Source: Treponema sp.
Lineage (GTDB): Bacteria; Spirochaetota; Spirochaetia; Treponematales; Breznakiellaceae
Assembly: GCA_031273405.1 (NCBI GenBank)
Contig: JAISRW010000154.1
Span: forward strand, 1 to 16,598
DNA: 16,598 bases
Direction of reading: 5' to 3'
Shown here in pieces: positions 842-16,598 of the stretch. Position 1 is the stretch's first letter. The number at the start of each line of letters is the position of its first letter. The position numbers and the translations under genes are program-made. The notes under the pieces were generated by a model. It saw only the letters and a program-made list of their open reading frames with translations. It did no database searches and was not told where the DNA came from.

Positions 842-866
842 CTTTTCTGCGTCTTAAGCTGGTACA

Positions 867-895: not shown

Positions 896-904
896 GAAGG
901 ATTT

Positions 905-1661: not shown

Positions 1662-1664
1662 AGT

Positions 1665-3044
1665 ATGAAAAAGATAGGCGCTGTCTTGTTAATTGTCGCG
1701 GCCATGGTTGCTCTGACTAATGCCTCGGTATGGGAAGGCGCCGCCTCCAGTTCCTCGAGCAGGGATCTGCCCGAAACGGGATACTATGCGGCGACCAATG
1801 CCTTTCCCCGAAATACGGTGGTGGATATAACCAATCTGGAAAATGGTAAAACCATCCGGGCTGTCGTTTCGGCTCCCCTGGAGAATCCGGGGCTTTTGGC
1901 CCTTCTTTCCAAAGACGCCGCCGCCGTTATCGGCATCCCGGAGCGGACTATAGGCCGGATCAGGATGAACCAGAGCGGGGACCCTGCAGCCTTCTCCCGG
2001 TTCGGCGAAGCCCTGCCGAGTCCGGGAGATCCCGACCGGGACCCTTCGGCTTTTGTGTCAGGCAACCGCGGAGCCGCCGGCGCTTCCGTTGCGGAAGCCC
2101 CGCCGGTTCCGGAAATTCCCCCGGCGGCTTTGCCGGCTCCGGAAGCTCCCCCGGCGGACGAGGCCGCCGGTTCTGTAGCGGAAGCCCCGGCGGTTCCGGC
2201 GGCGGCCTTGCCGGTTCCGGAAGCTCCCCCGGCGGACGAGGCCGGTAGTTCTGTAGCGGAAGCCCCGGCGCCGGAACAAACCAGGGCGGAAGACATTGAC
2301 GACCTGACCATCGTGGATCTTCCCGATGACTATATCCCCCCTTCGGATCGGGAGGATATAGCCGCCGTTCCGGAAGCAACCATTCCTGACCGGGAAGCCG
2401 CCCCCGAGATCGTTCCTGATCTGGCCTGGAGCCCTCCGGCGGCAACAGAACGGGAAGATCTCATGGAGCCCGAACCGGAGGGCATAGCTGACGGCTATGC
2501 CGGGGAAGCCGCCCCCGAGATCGTTCCCGATCTGGCCTGGAACCCTCCGGCGGCAACAGAGCGGGAAGATCTCACGGAACCCAAACCGAGGGACATAGCT
2601 GACGGCTATGCCGGGGAAGCGCCCGCCGCCGCGGAAACGCCGGACGCCGGGGCCGGAACCCCTCGCGGCGAATACGGCCTCGCCCTGGTTCCTACGGAAG
2701 AACGCCCCCCCGCATCCGCCGCACCGGCCCCCGCGCTTCCGGCTCTCGCCGCCAGGACGCCTCCACCGGTTTCGGGAGATAACAATTTTCCCGTTCCTGT
2801 GATCAGGGAACTGGAAGCAGGCAAGTATTACCTCCAACTCGCGGCGTCCCGGAATTCCGACGCGGTAAAGACGGAACTGGCGAAAATCAACGGGAGATGG
2901 CCTCTGGCGGTGCAGGTGAGCGAACAGGCCGCCTTCCCCTACCGTATACTGGTGGGCCCGGTCAGCCAGGGGGAAAGCCGGGCCCTGCTCCAGCAGATAA
3001 GGATGAGTTACCAGGACGCCTTTGTGCGGGTGGGACAGAATTAA
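1665..3044 (+). CDS. Exported SPOR-domain protein with RlpA-like N-terminus and Pro/Ala-rich repeat region
   Basis: The product has 459 residues. Residues 1-21 form a signal peptide (MKKIGAVLLIVAAMVALTNA). Residues ~37-105 (GYYAATNAFPRNTVVDITNL, then an IGRIRM end) resemble a double-psi beta-barrel of the RlpA type. Residues ~140-380 are low-complexity Pro/Ala/Glu, with two kinds of tandem repeat annotated separately. Residues 386-459 (KYYLQLAASRNS...YRILVGP) are a SPOR domain, a family that binds denuded glycan strands in septal peptidoglycan. The layout fits an envelope protein that reaches through the periplasm to septal peptidoglycan. RlpA-type glycan cleavage is only a possibility, because I cannot verify the catalytic residues. 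The ribosome binding site is AGGATAGG (1651-1658). It is the second gene of the pair with the upstream small exported protein. Minus-strand open frames here are shadows of the GC-rich repeats. Confidence 0.8.
   Translation: MKKIGAVLLIVAAMVALTNASVWEGAASSSSSRDLPETGYYAATNAFPRNTVVDITNLENGKTIRAVVSAPLENPGLLALLSKDAAAVIGIPERTIGRIRMNQSGDPAAFSRFGEALPSPGDPDRDPSAFVSGNRGAAGASVAEAPPVPEIPPAALPAPEAPPADEAAGSVAEAPAVPAAALPVPEAPPADEAGSSVAEAPAPEQTRAEDIDDLTIVDLPDDYIPPSDREDIAAVPEATIPDREAAPEIVPDLAWSPPAATEREDLMEPEPEGIADGYAGEAAPEIVPDLAWNPPAATEREDLTEPKPRDIADGYAGEAPAAAETPDAGAGTPRGEYGLALVPTEERPPASAAPAPALPALAARTPPPVSGDNNFPVPVIRELEAGKYYLQLAASRNSDAVKTELAKINGRWPLAVQVSEQAAFPYRILVGPVSQGESRALLQQIRMSYQDAFVRVGQN
2085..2272 (+). 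repeat. In-frame tandem repeat coding SVAEAP...PEAPPADEA units
   Basis: Two full units (2085-2171, 29 codons; 2172-2249, 26 codons) and a third partial unit each begin SVAEAP. The two full units share ...LPxPEAPPADEA. Unit length changes by whole codons, so the frame is kept. This is the Pro/Ala linker of the SPOR protein. Confidence 0.8.
2394..2615 (+). repeat. Tandem duplication of a 111-bp (37-codon) unit in the SPOR gene
   Basis: 2394-2504 and 2505-2615 encode two near-identical 37-residue units beginning EAAPEIVPDLAW and ending IADGYAG. They differ at only a few codons (for example S/N after AW, M/T after EDL, and the EPE/KPR stretch). The high nucleotide identity indicates a recent duplication. 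A third copy begins (GEA) and then diverges. Confidence 0.85.
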
Positions 3045-3137
3045 GCCCAGGGGAGGCTTTCCCGTTCCTTCCGCACTGCCCGGTGTTGTTCGTTCCTGCG
3101 GACTACGACGGTTAAAACTCTCTCACAGGGCCGTAAT

Positions 3138-3321
3138 GCCTCAAAATAAAACCTAGGAGCCTGTGGGACTTGTAGGTTTTTATGGCTTTTTTAGCAGAAA
3201 AACCATAAAAACCACGATTTTCGGGGCTGCTTTGGGCGTTTGCAGGGTAAAAATCGCCTGATCGGCGATTTTTCAGATTTCATGCGCGAAGCGCAACAAA
3301 CTGCTAGGTTTTTTATGAGGC
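3138..3321 (-). repeat. Dispersed intergenic repeat, copy B (inverted relative to copy A)
   Basis: On the minus strand this begins GCCTCATAAAAAACCTAGCA, continues into GTTTGTTGCGCTTCGCGC, and ends in ACAGGCTCCTAGG, matching the two ends of copy A (192-344). The CCTAG-bounded core, 3152-3308, is 157 bp. The ends extend as an imperfect inverted repeat, GCCTCA/TGAGGC. It carries two internal hairpins: 3175-3185 with 3203-3213 (11 bp), and 3249-3258 with 3264-3273 (10 bp, GGCGATTTTT side). It occupies most of the gene-free gap 3045-3400. The rest of that gap, 3045-3137, shows nothing I can name. Confidence 0.7.
3249..3273 (+). terminator. Terminator-like hairpin downstream of the SPOR gene
   Basis: AAAAATCGCC, loop TGATC, GGCGATTTTT: a perfect 10-bp stem ending in five T. 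On either strand it has the A-stem-T form of a bidirectional intrinsic terminator. It lies ~200 bp after the SPOR stop inside repeat copy B, so ending that transcript is plausible but unproven. Confidence 0.4.
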
Positions 3322-3332
3322 AACGCGGATAA

Positions 3333-3362
3333 TTGACAGCGTTCTTCTGTTTCCGATATACT
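3333..3362 (+). promoter_or_regulatory. Sigma70-type promoter for tRNA-Leu and probably the tig operon
   Basis: TTGACA (3333-3338) is a perfect -35 box. It is followed after 18 nt by TATACT (3357-3362), a near-perfect -10. Transcription would begin near 3369, about 30 nt before the tRNA. I see no terminator between the tRNA and tig, so read-through into the protease operon is likely. Confidence 0.8.
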
Positions 3363-3400
3363 ATTATGGTACGGGATAACCCTTTTCCAAAGCCCGCTTA

Positions 3401-3481
3401 GCGAGAGTGGTGAAATTGGTAGACACGCCAGACTTAGGATCTGGTGCCTCTGGCATAAGGGTTCAAGTCCCTTCTCTCGCA
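3401..3481 (+). tRNA. tRNA-Leu, anticodon UAG
   Basis: It folds as a complete class II tRNA. The acceptor stem is GCGAGAG (3401-3407) with CTCTCGC (3474-3480). The anticodon stem is CCAGA/TCTGG around loop CTTAGGA, with anticodon TAG at 3435-3437. The long variable arm is TGCC-TCT-GGCA (3445-3455). The T-arm is AAGGG-TTCAAGT-CCCTT (3457-3473). The long variable arm and the UAG anticodon assign it to leucine (CUA/CUN codons). The discriminator is A3481. The bases after it are GGA, so the CCA tail is not encoded and must be added by nucleotidyltransferase. Confidence 0.96.
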
Positions 3482-3533
3482 GGAGATAAAAGTCAGCCGG
3501 GGAGCAAAATTTACATCATGAAGAGGAAACCAC

Positions 3534-4895
3534 GTGGTCATTACGAAAGAAATCACTAAGCTGGAACATTCAAACGTCAAACTAACCCTTACGGTAGGAA
3601 AAGACGACATCCGTTCCGAATACGACAAGCTGCTCTCTGAATATATCAGGACCGTACAGCTTCCCGGTTTTCGCAAAGGGAAAACCCCCAAAGATGTGCT
3701 GGTCAGGAAATTCGGGGATGTCCTAAAAAAGGAAGTCCTGAGCCGGATTGTCGAAAAATCCGTGACCGAGGTTTTTGACGACCAGTCTTTTCCCAAAGAA
3801 AACCGGCCCCTGCCTTACTCCGTTCCGGCGGTGCAGGACGGGCCTCCCCTGGAGCCGGATAAGGATTTTCAGTTTTCCATGGTTTACGATGTGTTGCCCC
3901 GGGTACAGGTCGGGCAATGGCAGGGCCTGGAGGTCGAAATCCCGGATGTTTCCATCACCGATGAGGATCTGGACCGGGAATTGGAGGCTCTGCGGGAGCG
4001 AAACGCCGTTGTCCTGGATAAAAACGATGAAGAAGAGGCGGCTCCGGGGGATGTGGTTACGGTAAACTACTGCGAATTGAACGACCAAGGAGAGGCCCTT
4101 GGGGGGACGGAACGCCAGGACTTTGTCTTTACCCTGGGTTCCCTCTATAATCCCTTCAAATTTGACGACCAAGTCAGGGGGATGAAAAAAGGGGAAACAA
4201 AAGACTTTGAGAAAACCTATCCCGCCGATTTGGCCGACAAAGATCTGGCCGGAAAAACCAAGAAACTCCGCGTCACCCTCACGGCCCTCAAGCTTAAACA
4301 GCTTCCCGAACTGGACGATGAATTAGCCCAGGATGTGGATGAAAAATTCGATACCCTGGAGGACCTCAAAAAGGATATACGGGAAAGGCTCAGCAAGGAT
4401 CTGGACAGCCGCCTCAAGGTAATAAAAATCAACAAGCTCATGGAAAAGGTCATGGAGAATACCCCGGCGGTGATCCCCGAATCCATGCTCAGGCTGGAAC
4501 TGGACTCCCGGTGGCGGAATCTGGCCCGGCGTTTCAATACCGATTCGGAGGGGCTTTATAAGATAATGGGAAAGAACGGCAAGGGAGCCCAATCCGTCAT
4601 AGACGGCTGGAAGCCCGACGCGAACAGGGCTCTCCATTCCCGCGTTATTGTCGAAACCCTTATAGAAGAACTTAAACTGGAGGCTTCCGACCAGGAACTG
4701 GACAGGGAGATTGAGAGCCAGGCCGCCCTGGGCAGCGCCGGAGAAGTCGAAAAATACTATGAGCAGGAGGAAGCGAGGGAATATCTAAGGGAGGATATAA
4801 AGGAGCGGAAATTCTTTGACCGGCTTTTATCGGAAAACACAATAAAACCGGGAAACAAAGAAAAATATCTGGATTTGATATCCAATAATGAGTAA
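3534..4895 (+). CDS. tig: Trigger factor, ribosome-associated chaperone
   Basis: Trigger factor binds the ribosome exit tunnel and shields nascent chains. The 453-residue product has all the usual parts. The N-terminal ribosome-binding domain carries the signature GFRKGK at residues 45-50. An FKBP-type peptidyl-prolyl isomerase domain lies at about 170-260 ([13 protein letters not shown]...GMKKGE). The long alpha-helical C-terminal arms are rich in charged residues. The start is GTG at 3534, chosen because AAGAGGAA (3521-3528) lies 5 nt before it and the protein begins with the typical [12 protein letters not shown] strand. An ATG at 3518 is out of frame. It is the first protein gene of the tig-clpP-clpX-lon order found in many bacteria, 52 bp after tRNA-Leu, and it overlaps clpP by 8 bp. 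Confidence 0.95.
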
Positions 4896-5520
4896 TTTAT
4901 ACAGTATGAACGAACAAATGAATAACCTGGTCCCTATTGTTGTGGAACAAACCGGCATGGGAGAACGGTCCTATGATATATATTCCCGGCTCCTCAAAGA
5001 CCGTATAGTCTTTCTGGACGGAGAAATCAATGATATTTCGGCAGATCTGGTGGTGGCCCAGCTTCTCTTTCTGGACGGCCAGGATACGGAAAAAGACATC
5101 AACCTCTACATCAATTCTCCCGGAGGATCGGTTACCGCGGGTTTGGCCATTTACGATACCATGCAGTACGTGAAATGCGGCATCCAGACTATCTGCCTGG
5201 GCCAGGCGGCCAGCATGGCGGCCCTGATCCTCACCGCGGGGACCGAAAGGAAGCGCTTTGTCCTCCCCTCGTCCCGGGTTCTCATCCACCAGCCTTGGGG
5301 GGGCGCCCAGGGGCAGGCCAGAGACATAGGGATTCAGTCCAAAGAGATCGTCAGGCTGAAAAAACTCACAATTGATTACTTTGCCAGGCATACCGGCAAA
5401 GAATTGGCGCAGATTGCCGTCGATATGGAAAGAGATTTCTATATGTCCGCCGCCGACGCGGTGAGTTACGGCATTGCGGATTCTATTCTGGAGAGGGAGA
5501 AACATGGCAAGGCTTCGTAA
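4888..5520 (+). CDS. clpP: ATP-dependent Clp protease proteolytic subunit
   Basis: ClpP forms the double-heptamer serine protease chamber that degrades substrates fed by ClpX. The catalytic triad is visible: Ser109 in GQAASMAA, His134 in VLIHQPWGG, Asp183 in MERDFYMSA. The family stretches [10 protein letters not shown] and [20 protein letters not shown] are intact. At 210 residues it is of normal length. The ATG at 4888 overlaps the tig stop, and no clear Shine-Dalgarno precedes it. In-frame ATGs at 4906 and 4918 are equally plausible, and the latter gives [11 protein letters not shown], the commonest N-terminus. Translation is probably coupled to tig. The 3' end overlaps clpX by 17 bp, fitting production as one functional unit. 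Confidence 0.96.
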
Positions 5521-6757
5521 CGGTTCAGGGGGATTTGAACGCTCTTGTTCTTTTTGCGGAAAAAGCGCGGATATGGCCCGGCGGCTTATCGCCGGCCCCA
5601 ATGACGTCTTTATCTGCGATGACTGTGTCGAGGTCTGCCGGAAAATCCTGGTTGAAGAGGATCACGATCTTTCCACCCAGTTTACCGGGGATATTCCCAC
5701 GCCGAAAGATATAAAAAATTACCTGGATCAGTTCGTCATAGGCCAGGATGCGGCAAAAAAGGCCCTTTCCGTGGCGGTCTATAACCATTACAAGCGCATT
5801 GCCAATCCCGGCAAGGAAAACGAAGAGGTGGAAATTGAAAAATCCAACGTCCTCCTCATCGGCCCCACAGGAACCGGGAAAACCCTCCTGGCTAAAATCC
5901 TGGCCAAAAAGCTCAGGGTGCCCTTTGCCATCGTAGACGCCACCACCCTTACCGAGGCTGGCTATGTAGGGGAAGATGTGGAAAACATCCTTCTCAAGCT
6001 TATCCAGAACGCCGGCGGGAACATAGCCACCGCGGAACGGGGCATTGTCTACATCGACGAAATCGACAAGATTGCCCGGAAAGGCGAAAACATATCCATC
6101 ACCAGGGATGTCTCCGGCGAGGGCGTCCAGCAGGCTCTCCTCAAAATAATCGAAGGCACCATCGCCTCGGTCCCCCCCCAGGGCGGCCGCAAGCACCCCA
6201 ACCAGGAGATGATTCGGATCGACACTACCGGCATACTCTTCATCTGCGGCGGCGCTTTCGTGGGGCTTGAGAAATTTATCGAAAGGCGGGTGGTCCAGCA
6301 CCCCATGGGATTCGGCGCGGACACAGGCAATTATTCCCAGAAAAATCTCAAAGACCTGTACGACGCCCTCCATCCCGACGACCTTATCCATTTCGGCATG
6401 ATCCCCGAATTCATAGGCCGCCTTCCCATTACGGTGTCCCTGGAGGAACTGAAACGCGAAGACCTCAAGCGCATCATTACGGAACCCAGGAACGCCATCG
6501 TCAAACAGTACCAGGCGTCTATGGCCATAGACGACGTAAAACTGGAATTCACCGACGGGGCCATTGACGCCATTGCCGACACGGCTATAAAGCAGAAAAC
6601 CGGCGCCCGGGGGCTCAGGGCCATTGTCGAAAAGCTCATGACCGACATCATGTTTGAAATTCCTTCGATAGAGGGAAGCAAGCGGGTCATCATCACCCAG
6701 GAAGTAGTGGAGAAATCCGAAGCGCCTGAAATTCAACTCCTGCAAAAAAGCGCATGA
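5504..6757 (+). CDS. clpX: ATP-dependent Clp protease ATP-binding subunit ClpX
   Basis: ClpX is the AAA+ hexameric unfoldase that feeds ClpP. From the ATG at 5504 (ribosome site GAGAGGGAGA, 5491-5500) the product is 417 residues. The frame is open 10 codons further upstream, but that extension runs inside clpP and lacks support. Visible parts are: a zinc-binding N-domain with C15, C18, C38 and C41; Walker A GPTGTGKT (120-127); pore loop GYVG (153-156); Walker B ending in Asp185-Glu186 ([10 protein letters not shown]); RKH loop (GGRKHPNQE); the ClpP-docking loop, here MGF instead of the more usual IGF; and sensor 2 in GARGLR. It overlaps clpP upstream, and its stop overlaps the lon start as ATGA. 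Confidence 0.97.
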
Positions 6758-9261
6758 AGCAAAAACACCCGATGGCCAGAATTTTTTCAGGGTTTTCGGG
6801 GCTAAAAATCAAACAGGGAGAGGAAAAAGAATTTCCCCTTCTCCCTTTGCGGGATTTTGTTATTTTTCCCCAGACCATGGCGCCGGTGTTTATTACCTAT
6901 AGATCGGGAATCAGGGCCCTTGAAAACGCCATGGCAAAGGGGAACCACCGGCTTTTCGCGGTCCTGCAAAAAAGCGCCGAAACAGGCGAAACCTGGAAGG
7001 TCGGCACGGTAGTCAGGCTCGTCCAGCACCTGAAGCTTCCGGACAACACCTACAGGGTGATCCTCCAGGGGGAATACCGGGCGTCCCTTATCTCGTCCCG
7101 GAATGCCGACAATGCCGTCTTCGCGGCGGTAGAACCCATCAGGGCCTCTGAACAAACCGGCGGCGGAGAAAGCCCGGGTTCCATAAATCCCGAAACCGCC
7201 GCCCTCATGCGGGCGGTGCAGAAGTCTTTCATCCAGTATGCGGAGCTTTCAAAAAAAATCGGCGTCGAAATCCAGACGGCGGTGGAAAAAACCGAAAACG
7301 CCGAGCGCCTGGCCAATCTCATCTGCAACGCCATGGCGATAAAGGTTGACAAAAAGGCGGAACTCATCGGCATCCGCGATCCCGGTGACAGACTGGAGGC
7401 GGTCCTTGAGACCCTGGAACTAGAAAATGAAATCTTCGGAATCCAGAAAAGCATCTCCGGCAAAGTCAAAAACCAGATGGCAAAAACCCACCGGGAATAC
7501 ATACTCCAGGAACAGCTTAAAGAGATCAACAAGGAACTGGGTCAGGAGAGCAAAGAGGACGAATTCGCCGATTTGGAAAAAACCATCGAGGCCAAAAATC
7601 CCGGTGAAGAGGTGCTGCTCAAGGCCAGGAAGGAGATTGCCCGGATCAGGAAGCTCCAGCCCTTCTCTCCCGAGGCGGGAGTCCTCAGGGGATATCTCGA
7701 ATGGATCGCCGATCTCCCCTGGAGCAGCTATTCTTCCGACACAGGGGATCTTTCGGAAGCCGAAAGGATCCTTAACGAAGACCATTTTAACATGCGGAAG
7801 GCAAAGGAAAGGATAATCGAATTTATCGCCGTCAGGCAGCTCTCAGCCGCCGGAGGATCGGGGGATGCCGGGGACGCCGGAGGTTCGGGATCGGAGGCTG
7901 CGTTTAAAGGGCCTATACTCTGCTTTGTCGGCCCTCCGGGAACGGGGAAAACAAGCCTGGGGAAATCGGTAGCCCGGGCCCTGGGCAGGCGCTTTGTACG
8001 GATCTCCCTGGGGGGCGTCCGGGACGAGGCGGAAATCCGGGGCCACAGAAAAACCTATGTCGGCGCCCTTCCGGGAAAGATCATCCAGTCCATGCGGAAG
8101 GCCGGTTCCATGAACCCGGTTTTCCTCCTGGACGAGATCGACAAGCTCTCCACGGATTTCCGGGGCGATCCCGCCTCGGCCCTCCTGGAGGTGCTGGACC
8201 CGGAACAGAATTCGACTTTCACCGATCATTATATGGAAGTTCCCTACGATCTTTCCAAGGTGCTCTTCATTACCACCGCTAATTCCCTCCACACCATCCC
8301 TTACCCCCTCCTGGACCGTATGGAGATCATCGAGATTCCCGGTTACGGGGAAAACGAGAAACTGGTTATAGCCAGGGAATTTCTTGTCCCCAAGGAGCTC
8401 ACGGAAAACGGGCTGGGGAAGGCGAAGATTACCTTTAAGGACGAGGCTCTGCGGGAGATTATCCGCCGCTGGACCATGGAGTCGGGGGTGCGGAACCTGG
8501 AACGGGAGATCGCCCGCTGCATCAGGCGCATAGCCAGGGGAGCAGTGGACAAGGAATACGGCAAGAAACCGGAAAAACCCGTGGTTTCCTTTAAAAAAAC
8601 GGTAAAAAAAGAGGATCTTGAAAAACTCCTGGGCCGGAAGAAATTCAAGAACGATGTGGTGTTTAAAGAAGCCCGCACAGGGGTAAGCTACGGCTTGGCC
8701 TGGACCGAAACCGGCGGCACCATGCTGCCGGTAGAGAGCATATGTTTCGAAGGCAGCGGGGACATGATCATAACCGGCAACCTGGGAGAGGTCATGAAGG
8801 AAAGCGCCCGCATCGCCCTTTCCTATCTCAGGAGCGTCCGGGAAAAGTATACTTTTAAAGTAAAGGACCTGGGGAAAACCGACTTCCATATCCATGTCCC
8901 CGCGGGCGCCATACCCAAAGACGGCCCGTCCGCGGGAATAACCCTGGCCGCGTCCCTCCTCTCCACCCTCTGCTCGACACCCCCAAGGCCGGGAACGGCC
9001 ATGACCGGGGAACTGACCCTCACAGGCCGCATTCTCCCCATAGGGGGCCTCAAGGAAAAGCTCCTGGCGGCCATACGGAACGGCATGGACCGGGTCCTCC
9101 TCCCCGAGGACAACCGGGAAGATTGGGCGGAACTGGACAAGGATATACGGGAGGCAATCCCGGTTGACTTTGCCGAAACCGCCGAAGAAGCCTTTGCACT
9201 GCTCTTTGACCGCCGCATCCGCAAGGCCCCCCTGAAAGCCCTAAAGTTGACCCACAAATAA
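6754..9261 (+). CDS. lon: Lon protease (LonA family)
   Basis: Lon is a self-contained ATP-dependent protease that degrades misfolded and regulatory proteins in the cytoplasm. The 835-residue product has: an N-terminal LON domain beginning [20 protein letters not shown] (residues 27-46); a helical region; an AAA+ module with Walker A GPPGTGKT (393-400) and Walker B ending Asp460-Glu461 (FLLDEIDK); and a C-terminal protease domain with the Ser726 (PKDGPSAGI) and Lys769 (GGLKEKL) dyad at the family spacing of 43 residues. A Gly/Ser/Asp-rich insertion (~366-381) precedes Walker A. The ATG at 6754 overlaps the clpX stop. An in-frame ATG at 6772 is an alternative, and neither has a good Shine-Dalgarno, suggesting translational coupling. 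It is the last gene of the operon and converges with trxB. Confidence 0.97.
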
Positions 9262-9330
9262 GCATGAAAAAGAAAAACCGCCGCGACACGAAAGCCCGGG
9301 AAAGAAGGATATAGGAGAAACCTTTCAGCA

Positions 9331-9350
9331 TAACCTAGCAGTTTGTCGCG
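9331..9350 (+). repeat. Fragment of the dispersed CCTAGCAGTTTGT repeat
   Basis: AACCTAGCAGTTTGT followed by CGCG matches the end of repeat copies A and B. It lies in the short convergent gap between lon and trxB. Only the terminal ~18 bp is present, so it is a remnant or an independent terminal motif. I see no clear terminator in this gap. Confidence 0.45.
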
Positions 9351-9361
9351 CCATGCCGCCT

Positions 9362-10303
9362 TTAGGATTCCAGTCTGCTGATATACCGTTCAGCCATATA
9401 TGCGGCGACAGCGCCATCGCCGACACTGGTAGCAAGTTGCCTCAAAGTTTTTTCCCTGACATCGCCGGCAGCGAATATGCCGGGCACATTGGTTTCCATA
9501 TTCTCGTTGGTCCGTATATATCCCGGCGGCGATAAATCAAGAAGCCCCTCGAAAATGCGGGTGTTCGGAATATAGCCGATAAAAAGGAAGCATCCGTCAA
9601 CTTCAACTGGAATCAATTCACTTGTCTTCATGTCTTTCAAAATCACCCTGCCGAGCGTTTGTTCCCCCTCAAACGCTTCTACTTCGGTGTTCCAAATGAA
9701 CCGCATGGCGGGATTTTTCATCGCCCTTTCACGAGCCGCCGCGTGGGCGCGCGTGTTCCCCGCATCGCGGCGTACCGAAACCAAAACTTCGGAAGCAAAG
9801 CGGGTAAGAAAAAGCCCCTCTTCCAAAGCGGCATTGCCGGAACCTACGATCAGCACCCGCTTTCCCGTATAGCGGGCGGCATCGCAAGCGGCGCAGAAGG
9901 AAATTCCCTTATTCAAAAACAGCGCTTCGTTCCGTGCGCCCGTGAGCCGAGGGCGGCCCCCGGTAGCAGCGATAACCGCCTTGGCACGGTATTCGATTCT
10001 GAAGGTGTTGACCGCCTTATAATCCCCGCAGTTCTCCACCGATATGACATCCGTTAGTTTCACGTCCGCGCCGAACTTTCTGAATTGTTTATCAAAAAGC
10101 CGCATCAGTTCGGTGCCGTCAATTCCCGAAGGGAAGCCGGGATAATTTTCTACCTCGCTGGTGTATGCCGCCAGTCCGCCTAGGAGGGACTTTTCGATGA
10201 GCAGGGTTTTGAGCCGCGCCCTGCCCGCATAGATGGCCGCAGTCATACCCGCCGCGCCGCCGCCTATAATGACCGCATCATAGGCTTCGGTTTTCTTTTC
10301 CAC
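9362..10303 (-). CDS. trxB: Thioredoxin-reductase-family flavoprotein with a CAAC redox site
   Basis: This is an FAD- and NADPH-dependent disulfide reductase of the low-molecular-weight thioredoxin reductase type, 313 residues, normal length. Visible motifs are FAD-binding GGGAAG (14-19), the redox pair C137-A-A-C140 in SFCAACD, the NADPH-binding fold GSGNAA (154-159) with a downstream RRD basic patch, and the C-terminal FAD motif GIFAAGD. Most relatives have CATC or CAVC in the redox site. The start is GTG at 10303, with AAAGGA 10-15 nt upstream. It is the last gene of tusA-yedE-trxB, 21 bp after yedE. By context it may reduce TusA or a released persulfide as well as thioredoxin. Which substrate it prefers cannot be read from sequence, so the symbol marks the family rather than a proven role. 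Confidence 0.85.
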   Translation of the reverse strand: MEKKTEAYDAVIIGGGAAGMTAAIYAGRARLKTLLIEKSLLGGLAAYTSEVENYPGFPSGIDGTELMRLFDKQFRKFGADVKLTDVISVENCGDYKAVNTFRIEYRAKAVIAATGGRPRLTGARNEALFLNKGISFCAACDAARYTGKRVLIVGSGNAALEEGLFLTRFASEVLVSVRRDAGNTRAHAAARERAMKNPAMRFIWNTEVEAFEGEQTLGRVILKDMKTSELIPVEVDGCFLFIGYIPNTRIFEGLLDLSPPGYIRTNENMETNVPGIFAAGDVREKTLRQLATSVGDGAVAAYMAERYISRLES

Positions 10304-10324
10304 GAAGTCCCGTTTCCTTTTGGT

Positions 10325-11551
10325 TTACCGCTGGGAATTAAAGGACGCGGTTTTATACTTTTCCCAGCGATCTGCGGCAATCCATAACACGAGGAGAGCC
10401 AGAAGCGTAAGCAAAACGGCGGGGCCAAATCCGCCCAATAGCTTGGGAAGGTATATAGCCTTGCCGGAGTAGAGGAGCGGGATTTTTCGAACTACATCGC
10501 TCATAAGCGGGGCGCTGATTATGCCTCCGATAATAAAGAAAATCAGGGCTATCAGGCTCTGGACATAGCCCTCGCCTATCCGCACAAAAGTCCCCGACGC
10601 GCAGCATCCGGCCAGTACCGCGCCAATTCCGAAGATGAAAGCTCCGATAACCAGGTGGAGGGCGACAATGCCTCCGGGAGCCGTCTCCGGCAGTTTTGAA
10701 AGGTCAACGCCGTAGCGGGAGATATGAAGTCCCGCGAATCCTATAGTCGATACCGCCAGTGCCGCGATGAGGGCTTTCGCCATTTTGGTGCTTCCTATCA
10801 GGGCAGGGTCTCTGTAGGCGGCGGTAAAGCAGAACCGCGAATGTTGGAGGGCGTAGCCGATACCGAGGCCGATGAAAAAGATAAAACCGGCGGACGGGGC
10901 GTTTGCTCCTGTCATCAGGGCGAATAAAAGCCAAACGCCGGTAAGAATGATACCCGCGATGATTTGTAAAGTCCGGTTTCGCTGCCGCGCTTCCGGCGTC
11001 AGTTTTTGCCGATTCTTTCTGCGCTCATGGGAGATCGGCGGCAAGAACCATTTTGTCAGCATTTTTCCCCCAACTATAGCGCCGAGAAACACAAATAGAA
11101 GAAAAATCCAGCCGCTTAACGAAAAGGAAGGTATGGAAGAAAACATGGCTCCGATATTACAGCCCGGACTAAGCCGCGCGCCAACGCCCATCAAGGTGCC
11201 GCCTATAGCCCCGGCCCACGCCTGCCGCGCACACTTAATGCCGCGAATTTTCCACTGGGCTGCCAGGAGGCAGGAAATCATGGAACCGAAAATCAGGGCG
11301 GTATTGGTAAGAGCCGCCTGGTTATTGACAAATCGATACTTTCCGAGGCTGCCGTTGAACATCTTCCACGAATCCGCGTCAATGCCGATAAGTGTGAGGA
11401 TTTTGCCGCCCCATATAGGCAGCGGGCCGAATACGCCCCACGGCGAGGCAAAAGCCGCCAGCATAACCGCCAAGACCGCCATAATAACCGCTCCCGTAGT
11501 GTAGCTCCATTCTTTTTTAACAAGAGTTTCGTAGTACGATGACTTTTCCAT
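10325..11551 (-). CDS. yedE: YeeE/YedE (TsuA-like) sulfur-compound transporter
   Basis: This is a polytopic inner-membrane protein of 408 residues in two related halves joined by a basic cytoplasmic stretch (~173-195, rich in R/K). Cysteines typical of YeeE/TsuA thiosulfate channels are present: C131 in LSPGCNIG, C241 in HSRFCFTAAYRD, and C316-C317 in LAGCCASGTFVRIGEG. These line the thiosulfate path in YeeE structures, including the one from Spirochaeta thermophila. The ATG at 11551 is chosen because GGAGGA lies just upstream. An earlier in-frame ATG at the end of tusA lacks a ribosome site. It lies 8 bp after tusA and 21 bp before trxB. The substrate is probably thiosulfate or other sulfane sulfur. 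YedE relatives also occur in selenium-metabolism clusters, but no selD-type gene is visible here. Confidence 0.85.
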   Translation of the reverse strand: MEKSSYYETLVKKEWSYTTGAVIMAVLAVMLAAFASPWGVFGPLPIWGGKILTLIGIDADSWKMFNGSLGKYRFVNNQAALTNTALIFGSMISCLLAAQWKIRGIKCARQAWAGAIGGTLMGVGARLSPGCNIGAMFSSIPSFSLSGWIFLLFVFLGAIVGGKMLTKWFLPPISHERRKNRQKLTPEARQRNRTLQIIAGIILTGVWLLFALMTGANAPSAGFIFFIGLGIGYALQHSRFCFTAAYRDPALIGSTKMAKALIAALAVSTIGFAGLHISRYGVDLSKLPETAPGGIVALHLVIGAFIFGIGAVLAGCCASGTFVRIGEGYVQSLIALIFFIIGGIISAPLMSDVVRKIPLLYSGKAIYLPKLLGGFGPAVLLTLLALLVLWIAADRWEKYKTASFNSQR

Positions 11552-11559
11552 GATTCCTC

Positions 11560-11790
11560 CTATACCCTTACCTTCTCGATGATGATGTCCCATTCTCCCT
11601 CGCCGGTTTCCTCAATTTCAACATGACAACCCTGATCCCGCGCCCAATCGGGGATATTCTTAATGGCGCAGGTATGATCCACATTAACGGTAAGAACATC
11701 GCCCAATGTCATTGTTTTCATTTCCTGCTGTACTTTGACCAAAGGCAAAGGGCAGGCTTCTCCCAAACAATCCAGAAATCTTTTATTCAT
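11560..11790 (-). CDS. tusA: TusA/YedF/TsuB-type sulfur carrier protein
   Basis: This is a 76-residue cytoplasmic SirA-like protein. The N-terminal FLDCLGEACPLPLVK has the family CPxP motif, with the sulfur-binding cysteine at C13 and a second conserved-type cysteine at C8. The second Cys is typical of the TsuB/YedF branch that partners YeeE/YedE transporters. The ATG at 11790 has AAGGAGA 7 nt upstream. The frame stays open to 11952, but the extension crosses the palindrome at 11843-11869 and is not coding. It is the first gene of the three-gene operon. The protein is inferred to accept a persulfide from the transported sulfur compound and pass it to metabolism, with trxB as a possible source of reducing power. 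Confidence 0.88.
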   Translation of the reverse strand: MNKRFLDCLGEACPLPLVKVQQEMKTMTLGDVLTVNVDHTCAIKNIPDWARDQGCHVEIEETGEGEWDIIIEKVRV

Positions 11791-11842
11791 AGCGTTTCTC
11801 CTTGCGACGTATAAGCCGCGTTTATTTTTGTAACACTGAGGT

Positions 11843-11869
11843 AGTTCCAAAATGTCAGATTTTGGAACT
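11843..11869. promoter_or_regulatory. Perfect 11-bp palindrome upstream of tusA (operator or repeat)
   Basis: AGTTCCAAAAT, spacer GTCAG, ATTTTGGAACT: a perfect inverted repeat 53 bp upstream of the tusA start. It has no T-tract on the minus strand, so it is not a typical terminator for the preceding gene. The position suits an operator for the sulfur operon. The half-site TTTTGGAACT recurs at 14739-14748 inside a promoter. A dispersed intergenic palindrome is the alternative. Confidence 0.45.
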
Positions 11870-11953
11870 GCAACCTTAGATTTACTGATCAAATCGCGCC
11901 GGATGTGCAACTCTCCCCTCGGTTCCCCGAATCGTCCTCCCGGCGGGCCCACT

Positions 11954-11974
11954 GTCCGCAGCCGCTCCGCGGAC
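11954..11974 (-). terminator. GC-rich hairpin right after the GatB-asparaginase stop
   Basis: GTCCGC (11954-11959) pairs with GCGGAC (11969-11974), starting only a few bases after the TGA at 11978-11980. No T-run follows, so it would slow or protect the 3' end rather than act as a classic intrinsic terminator. Confidence 0.25.
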
Positions 11975-11977
11975 GTT

Positions 11978-14449
11978 TCACCCTGAAGTGCTTTCGTGGG
12001 CCGCCGATTCCATCATGGCGGCCCGTTCTTCGTCGCTGTCGGCTATGATACTGGCCGCCAGAAAGCGGGCCACCGTGGTTTCGGTGGTATAGGCGCCCAT
12101 GGGCACGGCGCCGGACCGCCAGAGTTCCCTGGCCGTAACATAGCCCGAGAAATCCACAATCCCCTCCTGCTGGGAACTGCAATAGAACCGGACCGAGCGG
12201 CGTTTGCCCATGGAAAAAACCCGTTTCAGCGAATAGGGGCCTTCCCTAAAACCGGCGGTTCCTGTGTCGTAGAGTTCCAGGAAGAAATTTTTCACTCCCC
12301 TGTCCATAAGCGAAGTCAGGTAGTCGGAACGCAGGCCGGGGTAGATGCGGATCACGCACATGGAATTGACCGCGTCTTCCAGAAGCTGGGACAGGACATA
12401 CTGGTCCGCTTCCAGCCGATCGGCCAGGAGGGAAGTCCCCTCAAAGACAGGCCTTTCCATGTTCCAGTTTCTAAATTGATCCGCGCCGAACCCTATCTTT
12501 TCAAATCTGAGATTCAAAGGAGAGAGGATCTTGCCGCCGTGGACCACGTAGACCCCCCCGGGCTTGCTCAGCGCCAGGTTGACGGCTTTCTGAATGGTCC
12601 GGGCCGCTTCGGCGCTTTGGCCCGGCGGCGTGGAAGAGGCGGCGAGAACGATGGGCGCCCCGGCATCGGCAAAGAGCCAGTAGAGCAGGGGGGCGGTGTA
12701 GGAGAGGGTATCGGTGCCGTGGGCCACGACAATGCCGTTGGCCGTGCCGGAGTTAAGCTTCCCGGCAACGGCCGCTATGAGCGCCGCCCAGTCGGCGGGA
12801 ACGATTTCTTCCGAAAGAAGGCGTCCCACCTGGACGGACTCGAAACGCACCTTTGAGGCGTCGATATCCGCCCCCGGTTCCGCCGCCCCCTTGGCCAGCA
12901 GATCCCGGAGGGTCTGTTCGTCGCCGCTTTCCACGGTCCCGTCCTCGCCGATGCGGCCCGAAATGGCCCCGCCCATGGAGAAGACATAAACCAGCGAAAC
13001 CGAAAGCTGTTCCTTGAGCACGTCTTTGACCAGGGTCGGTTCGGCCAGAGCCGATGTTTCTTTCATGATGAGCCCCGTGAGAAACTGAATGGGGCCGGCG
13101 TCCCTTTCCCGGATGCGCCGCACCTCCTGGGGGTTTTTTTCGATTATGGTCTTGACTATTCCTTCTATGGTTTTCCTGTCCCTAAGCTGTTCCCAGCCCC
13201 GTTCGCGGATAAGCGCTTCGGGGTCGCGGTTTTCTGCCAGCACCGCGGAAATTACCTGCCTGGCAATGTTGCTGTGTATCCGCTTCTCCATGAGCATGCG
13301 GAGAATCCGGGAAAAGCGCTCCGGCGTGAGGGGGGAATCGGGCAGGTTCAGGCCGAGGCGCCGGGATTCCTTGACGCAGTAGGAGGCTATCCACTGGGCG
13401 GCCTCCCGGGGAGGGGCGCCCAGGGACGCGGTTTTTTCAAAGTAGTCGGCCCGGCTTTTCTCGTCGCAGACAAATTCAGCTTGAAGCTGGGTAAGGCCGT
13501 ATTCGCCCATGATCCGGTCCCGTCTGTATTCGGGGAACTCCACGGTAAAGTTTTCCATGGCTTCCATGATCTCCGCCCCCGGGACAAAGGGGTCAAGGCC
13601 GCCGGGCCTTTCAAAACGGGGCTTTTCTTCCCGGCTCCGGATCTGGAAAGACTCTGTGGCGTTTTTAGCCTCGTTCCAAATCCGGTTTTCGCTGACCACC
13701 GTGCCGCCGTTGGTGATGATTTCTTCCTGGCGGGAAAGCTCCGCGTTCACCGCCTTGTAGACAAAATTGAAGGAATTGAGATTCTTCAGCTTGACAAAAT
13801 AATCGGGGCTGTCGGGATAGGGAACTATGGCGACATAGGCGCTGCAACGGATCACGTTTTCCGGGATGACCCCCGGCAGAATTTCCAGGTACTGGATCCG
13901 CCTTCGCAGATCCGTCAGAAAGACCTCGGCCTCTTCCCCGATCTCAAGATCCGCCGCGGTTCTGAGCCGCAGCGAGGGCATGCCGGCGGTAGAATAATCC
14001 ATATAGATCCCCTGGGAACCTGCTCCCCTGGAGGGGCGGACGAGCCGGCCCGCGTCTTCTTCTATCCTGATTTCTTCTACCTTGATGCGCTTTTTCCGGC
14101 GGTGGAACATAATATCCACCCCCGCGTTTTCCCCCAGCTTGACCGAAAACCGCGAAATGGCCGCCGGGGGCTTTCCGCCGGAGGCTTCCGCTATAGCCGG
14201 GATATTCAGACAGCGTTCATAGGCCGCCTCCCTGACGATGGAACCCCCGAGCCCCCTGGTGAGGAGGTAGCCTTTCCTCGCGGCCTGGGGGTTTAGCCGG
14301 GGAACCGGCCCCGGCGAGCCGGGGACAAAACGGCCCGAACAGACCGGGCAAAGGCCGTCGGGACCGCAGGAGCAGAAGGTTTTAACCCAGGGCCGGGATT
14401 TTTCTTCAAGCAAAATCCGTACTTCCAGGGCAATATGGGGCTTATACAC
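11978..14449 (-). CDS. GatB-like / type I L-asparaginase fusion protein with altered catalytic residues
   Basis: The product is 823 residues. Residues 1-~475 follow GatB (tRNA-dependent amidotransferase subunit B): HIALEVRILL, a CxC...CxxC cluster (C26, C28, C34, C37), KLKNLNSF (residues 220-227), and a full YqeY-like helical tail (~385-475) that in GatB binds tRNA. Residues ~482-823 are a type I asparaginase: MGGAISG (492-498), HGTDTLSY with Thr579-Asp580, and Lys651, with Asp-to-Lys spacing of 71 as in E. coli AnsA. The pair mirrors archaeal GatE+GatD, here as one chain. However, the asparaginase nucleophile Thr (GGTI) is Ala495, the GatB HxxL is changed (EVH to EVR), and the NYFYPDLPKGYQ signature is absent. 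The frame is intact over 2.4 kb, so it is probably functional but not as a normal glutaminyl- or asparaginyl-tRNA amidotransferase. The start is GTG at 14449 with GAGGT 6 nt upstream. It reads toward tusA but is separated by 187 bp. Confidence 0.8.
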   Translation of the reverse strand: MYKPHIALEVRILLEEKSRPWVKTFCSCGPDGLCPVCSGRFVPGSPGPVPRLNPQAARKGYLLTRGLGGSIVREAAYERCLNIPAIAEASGGKPPAAISRFSVKLGENAGVDIMFHRRKKRIKVEEIRIEEDAGRLVRPSRGAGSQGIYMDYSTAGMPSLRLRTAADLEIGEEAEVFLTDLRRRIQYLEILPGVIPENVIRCSAYVAIVPYPDSPDYFVKLKNLNSFNFVYKAVNAELSRQEEIITNGGTVVSENRIWNEAKNATESFQIRSREEKPRFERPGGLDPFVPGAEIMEAMENFTVEFPEYRRDRIMGEYGLTQLQAEFVCDEKSRADYFEKTASLGAPPREAAQWIASYCVKESRRLGLNLPDSPLTPERFSRILRMLMEKRIHSNIARQVISAVLAENRDPEALIRERGWEQLRDRKTIEGIVKTIIEKNPQEVRRIRERDAGPIQFLTGLIMKETSALAEPTLVKDVLKEQLSVSLVYVFSMGGAISGRIGEDGTVESGDEQTLRDLLAKGAAEPGADIDASKVRFESVQVGRLLSEEIVPADWAALIAAVAGKLNSGTANGIVVAHGTDTLSYTAPLLYWLFADAGAPIVLAASSTPPGQSAEAARTIQKAVNLALSKPGGVYVVHGGKILSPLNLRFEKIGFGADQFRNWNMERPVFEGTSLLADRLEADQYVLSQLLEDAVNSMCVIRIYPGLRSDYLTSLMDRGVKNFFLELYDTGTAGFREGPYSLKRVFSMGKRRSVRFYCSSQQEGIVDFSGYVTARELWRSGAVPMGAYTTETTVARFLAASIIADSDEERAAMMESAAHESTSG

Positions 14450-14486
14450 CAGGATACCTCGAAAAAATCAGCCTTTCGGAAAAAAA

Positions 14487-14495
14487 ATTATAGCA
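14487..14495 (-). promoter_or_regulatory. Extended -10 promoter for the GatB-asparaginase gene
   Basis: On the minus strand the sequence reads TGCTATAAT followed by a T-run: a perfect TATAAT with the TGn extension. Transcription would start near 14480, about 30 nt before the GTG start. No good -35 is visible at the standard distance, as is common for extended -10 promoters. Confidence 0.5.
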
Positions 14496-14512
14496 AATTT
14501 TATCCACCAATA

Positions 14513-14546
14513 GTATAATAACAATGGTATAATAATAGTATAATAA
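14513..14546. repeat. Three copies of GTATAATAA in the divergent intergenic region
   Basis: GTATAATAA occurs at 14513-14521, 14527-14535 and 14538-14546. Each copy carries a TATAAT hexamer on the plus strand. The AT-rich array lies just upstream of the GatB-asparaginase promoter and about 250 bp from the glycosidase start. It may be an UP-element-like or protein-binding AT tract, or simple slippage. Confidence 0.5.
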
Positions 14547-14638
14547 AAAGAATCTTAGCGCAATTCCTGATTTTTTTGGAGGTACGAGTATCAGGCGGGT
14601 CTCAAAACAGGCAAGCCGGTCCCGGAACGGCGGCTTTT

Positions 14639-14659
14639 GGATCCTTTTGGGAAGGATCC
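14639..14659. repeat. Hairpin GGATCCTT-loop-AAGGATCC in an otherwise unexplained gap
   Basis: A perfect 8-bp stem with a 5-nt loop (TTGGG) lies in the gap between the divergent genes (14450-14798). A neighbouring weaker stem, AAGCCG/CGGCTT, lies at ~14612-14637. The rest of 14550-14720 shows no gene I can support. A 76-codon minus-strand frame that overlaps the GatB start looks spurious. Confidence 0.35.
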
Positions 14660-14732
14660 TGCGGGTCCCCAAGCACGAGAGAACAAGAAAAGTTCTGAAA
14701 TCACGCTATGACTGAATAGTTACAAATTTTAT

Positions 14733-14761
14733 TTGACTTTTTGGAACTCATGAAGTAATCT
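14733..14761 (+). promoter_or_regulatory. Sigma70-type promoter for the glycosidase gene
   Basis: TTGACT (14733-14738) and TAATCT (14756-14761) are separated by 17 nt, with transcription expected near 14768 and the start codon at 14799. The spacer contains TTTTGGAACT (14739-14748), the half-site of the palindrome ahead of tusA. This could mean shared regulation or a shared repeat. Confidence 0.6.
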
Positions 14762-14798
14762 TTTACGATTCCGCAAAAATTGGCGATTAGGAGTATCT

Positions 14799-16226
14799 GT
14801 GACTAAACGAGATTTCCCCAAGATCCACTTTTACGATCAGGATTTTGTTGATATATACGATAAAACCTGGGCATGGATTCAGGATTATTGGAACAACGGC
14901 AGTGAACGAAGCATCATTGAAGGGAAATTTTTTTCCTATCCCGGCAGTCTCGTGGTACAGCAGACAGACGCTATTTTCTCTTCTTTTTTTCTTGTTTATT
15001 CCAACCGTATTTATCAGGCTCATCCCACGCTGGATGTTTTTTATCAGCGCCAGGAACCTAACGGGGCCATACGATCCGCCTATAACATCGAAACCGGCCT
15101 CCCGGTGCTGGCCGACGGCGATAATCCCGAGGGCTTGGGGCTGCCCCTCTTTGCCTGGACCGAATTCAACCTGTACCACAAATCGGCCAACAAGAAACGG
15201 GTCAAGGACGTGATCCCCATTCTGCATAAATACGTAGAATGGATAGATTCCGTTTTTAAGCAGCCCAACGGCCTCTACCAGGTCCCCTTGAGCGCCACCG
15301 GTATGGCCAACGCTCCACGGGAACAGGCGGCGTATCCTCTGGACTTTAACACCATGATGGCGGCGAATGTTCTCTATATGTCGGCCCTGGCGGATATACT
15401 CAACGATAAAGAAGCCAGCTTTCAGTATAAAAAGCAGTATTTTTCCCTCAAAACCAGGATCAATTCCCTCATGTGGGACCCGGAAGACGGCTTTTACCAC
15501 GATATCGATAAAAGCGAAAAACGGCTGCCGGTTAAAACCATAGCAGGCTATTGGCCGCTTCTGGCGGAGATTCCCAACGACGACAAGGCCGAGCAGATCA
15601 TCGCCAAGTTACAGGACCCAAAGTTCTTCGGCGCTCCTCATCCTTTTCCTTCGATTTCGGCATCCGAAGAAGCCTTCGACGCAAATGGCCGGGGCTACCG
15701 GGGTTCGGTCTTTCCCCACCTCACCTTCATGGTGATCAAGGGGCTGGAGCGCTACCAGCGCTGGGATCTGGCCAGGGAATGCGCCATCCGGCATCTGTAC
15801 TTTGTGCTGGACTCCATGAGCCCCGACGGCAACCACCACAAGGGCAATCTGTGGGAGGCCTATCTGCCCCTCAAAGAAGGGCCTGCCCAATGGCCGGGAA
15901 ACGCCGATTTTCCCCGGCCGCAATACCTCAGCTACGCCGCCCTTTCCACCATCTGCCTTACCATCGAGAATATCGTGGGGCTTTTTATCTCCCTCCCCCG
16001 CAAAACCGTAGACTGGATCATCCCCAACCTCGAAATCATGGGGGTGGAGAATCTCTCCCTCAAAAAGAACATGATTACGATACTCTCCAATAAATCCGGC
16101 CGGGGCTGGGAGATCCACATGGAGAGCGAGAAACTCTATTACTTTACGATAAACATCCTGGGCAAAAAGAAGAAAACCCTCCCCATTCCCTCAGGAAAAT
16201 GCTCAATGCTGATAGACAAACTCTAG
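14799..16226 (+). CDS. GH63/GH37-like (alpha/alpha)6-barrel glycoside hydrolase
   Basis: The product is 475 residues with no signal peptide, so it is cytoplasmic. The pattern is that of trehalase-like clan enzymes, including mannosylglycerate-hydrolase-type members: YNIETGLPV, SATGMANAPRE followed by YPLDFNTMMAANVLYMSALA, GYWPLLAEIP, YRGSVFPHLTFMVIKGLERY, and NLWEAYLP with Glu353 as a candidate catalytic base. A ~75-residue C-terminal part (from ~402) looks like a small beta domain. At the site equivalent to the GMDNSPR catalytic acid, this protein has GMANAPR (Ala170), so activity is uncertain. The GTG at 14799 is the start, with TAGGAG (14788-14793) 5 nt upstream. A good promoter lies ahead, and the gene is divergent from the GatB-asparaginase gene. 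The substrate cannot be deduced. A compatible-solute or storage glucoside or mannoside is a guess from the family. Confidence 0.72.
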   Translation: MTKRDFPKIHFYDQDFVDIYDKTWAWIQDYWNNGSERSIIEGKFFSYPGSLVVQQTDAIFSSFFLVYSNRIYQAHPTLDVFYQRQEPNGAIRSAYNIETGLPVLADGDNPEGLGLPLFAWTEFNLYHKSANKKRVKDVIPILHKYVEWIDSVFKQPNGLYQVPLSATGMANAPREQAAYPLDFNTMMAANVLYMSALADILNDKEASFQYKKQYFSLKTRINSLMWDPEDGFYHDIDKSEKRLPVKTIAGYWPLLAEIPNDDKAEQIIAKLQDPKFFGAPHPFPSISASEEAFDANGRGYRGSVFPHLTFMVIKGLERYQRWDLARECAIRHLYFVLDSMSPDGNHHKGNLWEAYLPLKEGPAQWPGNADFPRPQYLSYAALSTICLTIENIVGLFISLPRKTVDWIIPNLEIMGVENLSLKKNMITILSNKSGRGWEIHMESEKLYYFTINILGKKKKTLPIPSGKCSMLIDKL

Positions 16227-16232
16227 CAGCCG

Positions 16233-16261
16233 CGGACCTTCGGTCCGATTGCGCTTTGCGC
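16233..16261 (+). terminator. Hairpin pair just after the glycosidase stop
   Basis: CGGACC-TTC-GGTCCG (16233-16247) begins 7 nt after the stop codon and is followed by GCGC-TTT-GCGC (16251-16261). No T-run follows, so an intrinsic terminator is only possible. The second hairpin begins a fragment of the dispersed repeat (GCGCATAAAACCTCCAAAAA, matching copy A near 212-231). Confidence 0.3.
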
Positions 16262-16323
16262 ATAAAACCTCCAAAAACCGCCCGCAAGGCCCAGTCCTCC
16301 CCCAGGCCCGGAGCAGCAGCCAA

Positions 16324-16382
16324 GCCGGCGCGTGGGGACTTTGCTCCGCAAAGTCCCTCGGAGTTTCGCGGAGCGAAACTCC
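16324..16382. repeat. Double hairpin repeat, copy 1 (loops TCC then GGA)
   Basis: GGGACTTTGC-TCC-GCAAAGTCCC (16335-16357) is a perfect 10-bp stem with a triplet loop. Two bases later comes GGAGTTTCGC-GGA-GCGAAACTCC (16360-16382), also 10 bp with a triplet loop. It is preceded by GCCGGCGCGTG. The same block recurs at 16548-16598 with the loops exchanged. Confidence 0.8.
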
Positions 16383-16409
16383 AGGCCCGTCGCAAGGCGG
16401 ACCGAAGCG

Positions 16410-16556
16410 TTGAGCCGGATTGCCGGCGCGATGAGCCGGATTGCCGGCGCGATGAGCCGGATTGCCGGCGCGTTGAGTTGGATTGCCGGCGCGATGAGTT
16501 GGATTGCCGGCGCGTTGAGTTGGATTGCCGGCGCGTTGAGTTGGATTGCCGGCGCG
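16410..16556. repeat. Seven tandem 21-bp repeats
   Basis: The units start at 16410, 16431, 16452, 16473, 16494, 16515 and 16536. The consensus is WTGAGYYGGATTGCCGGCGC plus a final G. The first base is T, A, A, T, A, T, T in order. The YY pair is CC in units 1-3 and TT in units 4-7. The array sits between the two double-hairpin copies and shares GCCGGCGCG with their leading edge. A 21-bp unit keeps any frame open on both strands, so the open frames across it are not evidence of a gene. Confidence 0.9.
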
Positions 16557-16598
16557 TGGGGACTTTGCGGAGCAAAGTCCCTCGGAGTTTCGCTCCGC
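16548..16598. repeat. Double hairpin repeat, copy 2 (loops GGA then TCC), cut by window end
   Basis: GCCGGCGCGTG then GGGACTTTGC-GGA-GCAAAGTCCC (16559-16581), then GGAGTTTCGC-TCC-GC... running off the window. It is identical to copy 1 except that the two triplet loops are swapped. Confidence 0.8.

Follow-up and report, generated by a model that had tools for sequence, protein, structure and literature searches.

A GatB protein fused to a putative pseudo-asparaginase in spirochaetes, and a Treponema copy that appears degenerate in both halves

The question raised by the locus described here is why a bacterium should encode a GatB-like and an asparaginase-like protein as a single chain, and whether that chain is a working enzyme or has another job. 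The locus lies in a 16,598-nucleotide stretch of Treponema sp. (assembly GCA_031273405.1, contig JAISRW010000154.1, positions 1 to 16,598), the whole of which is called the window below. To judge from sequence, the gene arose as a copy of a spirochaete GatB and has diverged from it, and its fusion to an asparaginase-fold domain, which we name AnsL, is old; the fusion is an inherited GatB-pseudo-asparaginase, and the window carries its doubly degenerate form. The gene and its domains are as follows.

11978..14449, minus strand: fusion gene, GatB-like plus asparaginase-like (AnsL), 823 codons
13622..14383, minus strand: GatB_N cradle (catalytic) domain, residues 23-276 (Pfam PF02934, E 4e-26)
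13004..13447, minus strand: GatB_Yqey helical tail, residues 335-482 (Pfam PF02637, E 1.5e-33)
11984..13000, minus strand: AnsL asparaginase-fold domain, residues 484-822

The first-pass annotation had described one intact 823-codon frame joining a GatB-like half to a type I asparaginase half. The frame was confirmed: translation gives a single open reading frame on the minus strand from a GTG at 14449 to a stop at 11978, the plus strand of the same interval is broken by stops, and the Pfam Asparaginase match (residues 487-645, E 2.4e-22) is in the same frame as both GatB domains, which scored 92.3 bits (GatB_N) and 116.2 bits (GatB_Yqey) against gathering scores of 23.4 and 27. In known GatB proteins a tail of the GatB_Yqey type binds tRNA. 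The profile search of the N-terminal half placed it, as annotated, in the GatB superfamily, and by score it is GatB-type and not GatE-type: the NCBIfam GatB models gave up to 255 bits, below their equivalog cut-offs (TIGR00133, 218.1 versus 314.8; NF004012/PRK05477, 255.3 versus 338), and GatE gave 42-55 bits over the tail only (equivalog 41.6 versus a cut-off of 319.55, residues 287-483). The AnsL half has the asparaginase fold, and its closest PDB sequence match is a Thermococcus asparaginase (9ufr_A, 80.9 bits); it falls below the cut-offs for type I asparaginase (TIGR00519, 92 versus 260.5 bits) and for the GatD equivalog (83.7 versus 324). On these scores membership of the window protein in GatE or GatD was rejected.

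Chance or a mis-joined assembly is excluded as the origin of this architecture, because the listed homologues share the three domains and the frame is open in 29 genomes. A search with the window protein returned 385 homologues (E up to 1e-3); the 120 matches listed all have the same three Pfam domains at 62-100% identity, and Treponema, Spirochaetaceae, Breznakiella and Termitinemataceae occur among their names. In a sample of 392 genomes from the phylum of a Treponema metagenome-assembled genome the fusion was present in 31. Its frame is single and open in 29 of these; in G001 contig ends split it, and in G072 a stop interrupts it. Relatives encoding the two halves as separate genes, which the earlier annotation had named as the observation that would speak against a true fusion, were looked for in the 392 genomes and not seen. 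A search of the same genomes with the AnsL half alone found no free-standing AnsL; the best non-fusion match (G041, 78.8 bits) and a second G217 protein have the normal TGGT motif. No report of a GatB-asparaginase fusion was found in the literature searched, most subscription journals lying outside its coverage.

Two forms of the fusion are distinguished. Of the 32 genomes that were searched for GatB and GatA (the 31 fusion genomes and G002), five have form A (G205, G295, G331, G336 and G379) and the other 27, including G002, have form B, to which the window copy belongs. In all five form A genomes the fusion exceeds the GatB equivalog cut-off (TIGR00133, 520-558 bits), carries the catalytic motifs, has an adjacent gatA and is the only GatB found, the adjacent GatA being over its own cut-off in only two (G331 and G379). 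The form A fusion is almost certainly a working GatB. In form B, the fusion scores 147-285 bits, below the cut-off, and a separate GatB over the cut-off lies elsewhere in 26 of the 27 genomes; in the remaining one, the fragmentary G002, the fusion is accompanied by no other GatB and by a 48-bit fragment of GatA. A GatB over the family cut-off is thereby present in 31 of the 32 genomes, in form A as the fusion itself. Some match to GatA was found in all 32 (over the cut-off in 21, and in two pieces in several form B genomes), and the usual amide-releasing subunit is therefore present. AsnRS was found in all five form A genomes and GlnRS in four. Form A also extends beyond this sample: with a form A protein as query, each of the best 120 listed matches has the three domains. 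NCBI names are attached to 16 of these, and 15 of the names are GatB. The arrangement recurs, again with Ala at the asparaginase nucleophile position, in P0310, a protein of Candidatus Wallbacteria. Separately, in the 270-residue P0313 an OB-fold domain (PF01336) is joined to the end of AnsL, and the protein is possibly an AnsL fused onto AspRS; P0320 starts directly with the AnsL motif, on a contig of 2076 bases, and is perhaps a fragment.

The two forms differ in the residues expected of a catalytic GatB. A model of yeast GatB (PMC4027206) has H36, E156 and E186 as Mg2+ ligands and E34, T189, N230 and S232 as ATP contacts. These positions were carried to the GatB half of the window protein by motif matching and compared across 123 form A and 132 form B sequences. 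Two of the three modelled Mg2+ positions are replaced in the window protein, leaving R11, E130 and R161 where the model has His, Glu and Glu.

14417..14419, minus strand: Arg11, replacing a conserved His (yeast H36, modelled Mg2+ ligand), by motif match
13967..13969, minus strand: Arg161, replacing a conserved Glu (yeast E186, modelled Mg2+ ligand), by motif match

The modelled Mg2+ set is intact in all 123 form A sequences, with His at the H36 position and Glu at the E186 position in every one. In form B, the H36 position is Arg in 125 of 132 (six gaps and one Lys), the E186 position is Arg in 128 of 132, and the first Glu (E130) is kept in 132 of 132. On the ATP side form B keeps the Glu in 123 of 132 (seven gaps, two Asp) and the Thr in all 132; taken together, E9, E130, T164, N223 and S226 are kept in at least 123 of 132, and H128, D203 and E220 are changed in all 132. 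The GatB half of the window protein is probably dead as an enzyme.

The asparaginase half has also changed at its active site. According to PMC8256714, class 1 asparaginases need Thr12, Tyr25, Thr89, Asp90 and Lys162 (EcAII numbering). We aligned 125 form A rows and 145 form B rows of AnsL (duplicates being P0121/L024 in form A, and P0001/window, P0047/L012 and P0088/L008 in form B) with 39 free-standing PF00710 proteins for comparison. The positions concerned are these.

12965..12967, minus strand: Ala495, at the position of the asparaginase nucleophile (Thr12 of EcAII), by alignment
12806..12814, minus strand: Ser-Glu-Glu signature, AnsL residues 546-548, by alignment
12707..12721, minus strand: HGTDT motif (Thr89-Asp90 of EcAII), residues 577-581, by alignment
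12506..12508, minus strand: Arg648 at the probable catalytic-Lys position, by spacing to a conserved Phe

The Thr12 position is Thr in all 39 free-standing proteins. Six of the 125 form A rows have a gap here, and of the other 119 all but one (118) have Ala; so do 138 of the 145 form B rows, the others having Thr (four), Ser (two) and Val (one). The term type I asparaginase thus describes the fold correctly but not the active site, where the window protein has Ala in place of the catalytic Thr. The Tyr position (505, Thr in the window) is variable and, being placed by spacing, is less sure. The remaining pocket positions are among the most conserved columns of AnsL. The pocket Ser, which we take to be Ser58, opens the Ser-Glu-Glu signature, whose three residues are each present in 125 of 125 form A rows and in 143, 145 and 144 of the 145 form B rows. 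The Thr89 position (T579) is kept in 125 of 125 and 138 of 145, and the Asp90 position (D580) in 125 of 125 and 144 of 145. At the catalytic-Lys position form A has Lys in 106 and Arg in 17 of 123, and form B has Lys in 130 and Arg in 2 of 132. On alignment, AnsL is a domain without the nucleophile Thr and (less surely) without the Tyr that has kept the Ser, Thr-Asp and Lys/Arg positions; the window protein, with A495, T505, T579, D580 and R648, does not have the five asparaginase residues.

The constraint on the protein has shifted between its domains. Within form A (123 sequences) the cradle has a mean pairwise identity of 0.79, the tail 0.57 and AnsL 0.55; within form B (132 sequences) the values are 0.61, 0.585 and 0.71. 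Of 1500 pairs compared in each form, AnsL is more alike than the cradle in one pair of form A and in 1453 pairs of form B. Smaller and more even sets drawn from genome loci (10 form A pairs, 276 form B pairs) gave means of 0.78, 0.516 and 0.50 for form A and 0.48, 0.400 and 0.53 for form B; here AnsL was above the cradle in none of the 10 form A pairs and in 233 of the 276 form B pairs. AnsL is the best conserved part of form B.

The surroundings of the gene bear on how form B arose. One feature of the window serves as a marker.

14799..16226, plus strand: divergent MGH1-like glycoside hydrolase, syntenic marker of the ancestral gat operon

We compared 20 fusion loci, 15 of form B (window included) and five of form A, and the glycoside hydrolase is present at all 20, beside the fusion in form B and beside its gat operon in form A. 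The five form A loci have the order divergent glycoside hydrolase, gatA, gatB::AnsL and AspRS gene. The one AspRS that was scored belongs to the non-discriminating family (410 versus a cut-off of 368.4), and the remaining four share 64-70% identity with it; gatA, gatB and a non-discriminating AspRS (ND-AspRS) together serve to make Asn-tRNA(Asn) by amidation. In none of the 15 form B loci compared is gatA beside the fusion, and aspS is likewise not adjacent; gatC was not searched for. In the window the fusion is neighboured by TusA-like, YedE-like and TrxB-like genes and the glycoside hydrolase. Since this flank is shared, the form B fusion looks as if it sits at the ancestral gatB site, gatA and aspS having gone. 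The glycoside hydrolase was set aside as a functional partner because it also lies beside the unfused gat operons L070-L073.

In a tree of the GatB half (75 rows, quick method, no bootstrap) form B is a single clade (support 100), and form A is intermixed with unfused GatBs, so AnsL has been gained or lost several times; L079, for example, is a gatB-aspS2 locus without AnsL amid fused kin. We label as termite-type the form B group that includes T. primitia-like and Breznakiella-like members; the four separate GatBs sampled from its genomes are placed next to the form A sequence A_L034 (support 88). Eleven separate GatBs from other Treponema form B genomes (L048, L050, L052, L054, L057, L059, L061, L063, L065, L067 and L069) stand away from other spirochaete GatBs on a very long branch (2.0 changes per site), as though they had come from another source. 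In a tree of AnsL (53 rows, quick method, P0125 not included) form B is nested in form A, where P0186, P0195 and P0212 are its neighbours (support 95), and AnsL, the Wallbacteria sequence included, stands apart from 20 free asparaginase-family proteins (support 99). Compared for an asparaginase or a GatD origin, form A AnsL scored 95-113 bits with asnASE_I and 89-118 bits with GatD, all far below cut-off. L055 was considered as a GatA-GatB fusion and rejected, GatA having no match in that frame.

What, then, might the protein do? The copy in the window has lost key residues in both halves, and because of this it is more readily seen as a sensor or scaffold than as a working enzyme. We tentatively favour, at less than even confidence, the reading that AnsL binds asparagine or aspartate unhydrolysed. 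In form A, AnsL holding the free amino acid would tune GatCAB and ND-AspRS-dependent formation of Asn-tRNA(Asn) to the asparagine supply; in form B, amidation would have been lost and the protein would act as an asparagine-responsive regulator or holder, maybe touching tRNA through its tail. The form B part of this reading is proposed because the transamidase ligands are lost and AnsL is the part best kept. The earlier annotation had offered, as its second option, a tRNA-binding protein built of these parts for another job such as Asn/Asp sensing, and of its proposals this fits best; a regulatory, tRNA-binding role for the window protein is what we infer. A fuller version of the sensor reading, in which a dead tRNA-holding GatB and a dead asparagine-holding asparaginase together form a stand-alone sensor that couples free asparagine to the charging of tRNA(Asn), is doubtful as a whole. 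By that account an ancestral, sole and sensor-equipped GatB would have been freed from catalysis after a second GatB arose, and form A would be a naturally feedback-controlled transamidase.

Several observations weigh against the favoured reading. In form B the GatB tail is less well conserved than either the cradle or AnsL, which weakens the tRNA-binding step of the argument. No ND-AspRS-like match was found in 19 of the 27 form B genomes searched, and the link to tRNA(Asn) amidation is therefore weak there. AsnA is over the cut-off in three of the five form A genomes (five of seven when G395 and G396 are included), so the prediction that form A cells rely solely on tRNA-made asparagine failed and its strict version was dropped; AsnB is over the cut-off in none of the five. 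In the order of G331, AsnA is absent from the unfused G394, G397, G398 and G399 and present in three fused genomes, which are too few to be relied on, and its presence in 25 of 31 fusion genomes versus 112 of 361 others is confounded by kinship and was not used. The pocket Thr is absent from seven of 145 form B rows, the AnsL of the window has Arg648 with a two-residue insertion in that segment, and four form B fusions (L013, L018, L025 and L029) have Thr at the nucleophile position, probably as a secondary change within form B. AnsL is also missing from GatBs nested among form A, whether by repeated loss or by repeated gain.

The main rival is that AnsL is a structural module which dimerises GatB or docks AspRS as a built-in transamidosome scaffold, its pocket being kept for folding. 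GatD forms the core of GatDE. We consider this reading unlikely, since the pocket positions are among the most conserved columns and form B retains AnsL without gatA or aspS beside it in 15 loci. That AnsL is still an enzyme with changed chemistry, for example hydrolysis by way of the retained Thr-Asp-Lys set or of another amide, could draw on the keeping of T579, D580 and K/R648 and on the Thr at 495 in four of 145 form B rows; it is improbable, given that the nucleophile Thr is nearly always gone, that Tyr position 505 (placed by spacing) is variable and that human ASPG activity is said (PMC5443537) to depend on that Thr.

More improbable again is a working enzyme, either a single-chain one like GatDE or an alternative GatB pairing with the GatA and GatC of the genome. 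The near-certain function of form A as the only GatB found in its five genomes speaks for it, as do the five GatB residues that form B largely keeps. The form B Arg at two modelled Mg2+ positions and the three residues changed throughout form B tell against it, together with the missing gatA neighbour and the separate GatB in 26 of 27 form B genomes. Of the GatDE-like proposal in the first-pass annotation, the bacterial fusion of GatB-superfamily and asparaginase-family halves stands, and the working enzyme is not supported, the nucleophile being mostly gone. A decaying, functionless relic of an old gat operon is very unlikely: operon partners have been lost, branches are long and G072 has an in-frame TAG, yet the frame is single and open in 24 of 26 sampled form B genomes, AnsL has a mean pairwise identity of 0.71 (0.53 in the locus set) and its pocket positions are conserved. 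The G072 copy (contig C21:43114-45358, form B) is the sole one so interrupted among the 31 fusion genomes.

Other features of the window were recorded. Directly downstream of the fusion, at 9362-11952 on the minus strand, are a TusA-like gene, a YedE/YeeE-like sulfur/selenium transporter gene and a thioredoxin-reductase-like gene; a functional link to them was rejected, as no homologues occur at the other 19 fusion loci compared. Three copies of an A+T-rich 14-base repeat (14508-14546) lie between the fusion gene and the divergent glycoside hydrolase. At 3401-9261 a tRNA-Leu is followed by trigger factor-, ClpP-, ClpX- and Lon-like genes in a row, named by eye from their translations. A Pro/Ala-rich protein with a C-terminal SPOR domain is encoded at 1665-3044, with 78- and 111-base repeats at 2122-2270 and 2392-2624, and at 16407-16557 a 21-base unit is repeated in tandem 7.2 times (95% match) within a minus-strand open reading frame that codes for RRQSNST-type repeats.

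GatCAB is a core translation enzyme, and to our knowledge no amino-acid-sensing domain has been described for it. Here a candidate sensing domain is attached to the only GatB found in at least five sampled spirochaete genomes, the design recurs in at least 120 database proteins, and a Treponema group retains a version seemingly catalytically dead in both halves. If AnsL binds asparagine, it would provide a direct link from free asparagine to tRNA-dependent asparagine synthesis and a natural counterpart to archaeal GatDE built from the same fold families. Compared with the GatB of bacterial GatCAB (TIGR00133/PRK05477), the window copy falls below the cut-off (218 versus 314.8), has Arg at two of the three modelled Mg2+ ligands and carries a 340-residue asparaginase-fold extension. 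It differs from archaeal GatD-GatE in being one chain with the GatB part first, in being GatB-type and not GatE-type by score, in lacking the nucleophile in AnsL and in the presence of GatA in the fusion genomes searched. AnsL resembles type I (cytoplasmic) L-asparaginase (Thermococcus/Pyrococcus, EcAI) in fold and in most pocket residues; it differs in the replacement of the nucleophile Thr by Ala, in the variable Tyr position, in its TIGR00519 score (92 versus 260.5) and in having been found nowhere but on GatB among the 392 genomes searched. Deinococcus and Thermus, which combine ND-AspRS and GatCAB with AsnRS and GlnRS, use an extra archaeal-type AspRS for tRNA-dependent asparagine synthesis (PMC4206432). 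Form A is like that route in having GatA and GatB, an ND-type AspRS beside gatB, AsnRS in five of five genomes and GlnRS in four of five, and it differs in having AsnA as well in three of five and in a GatB that carries AnsL.
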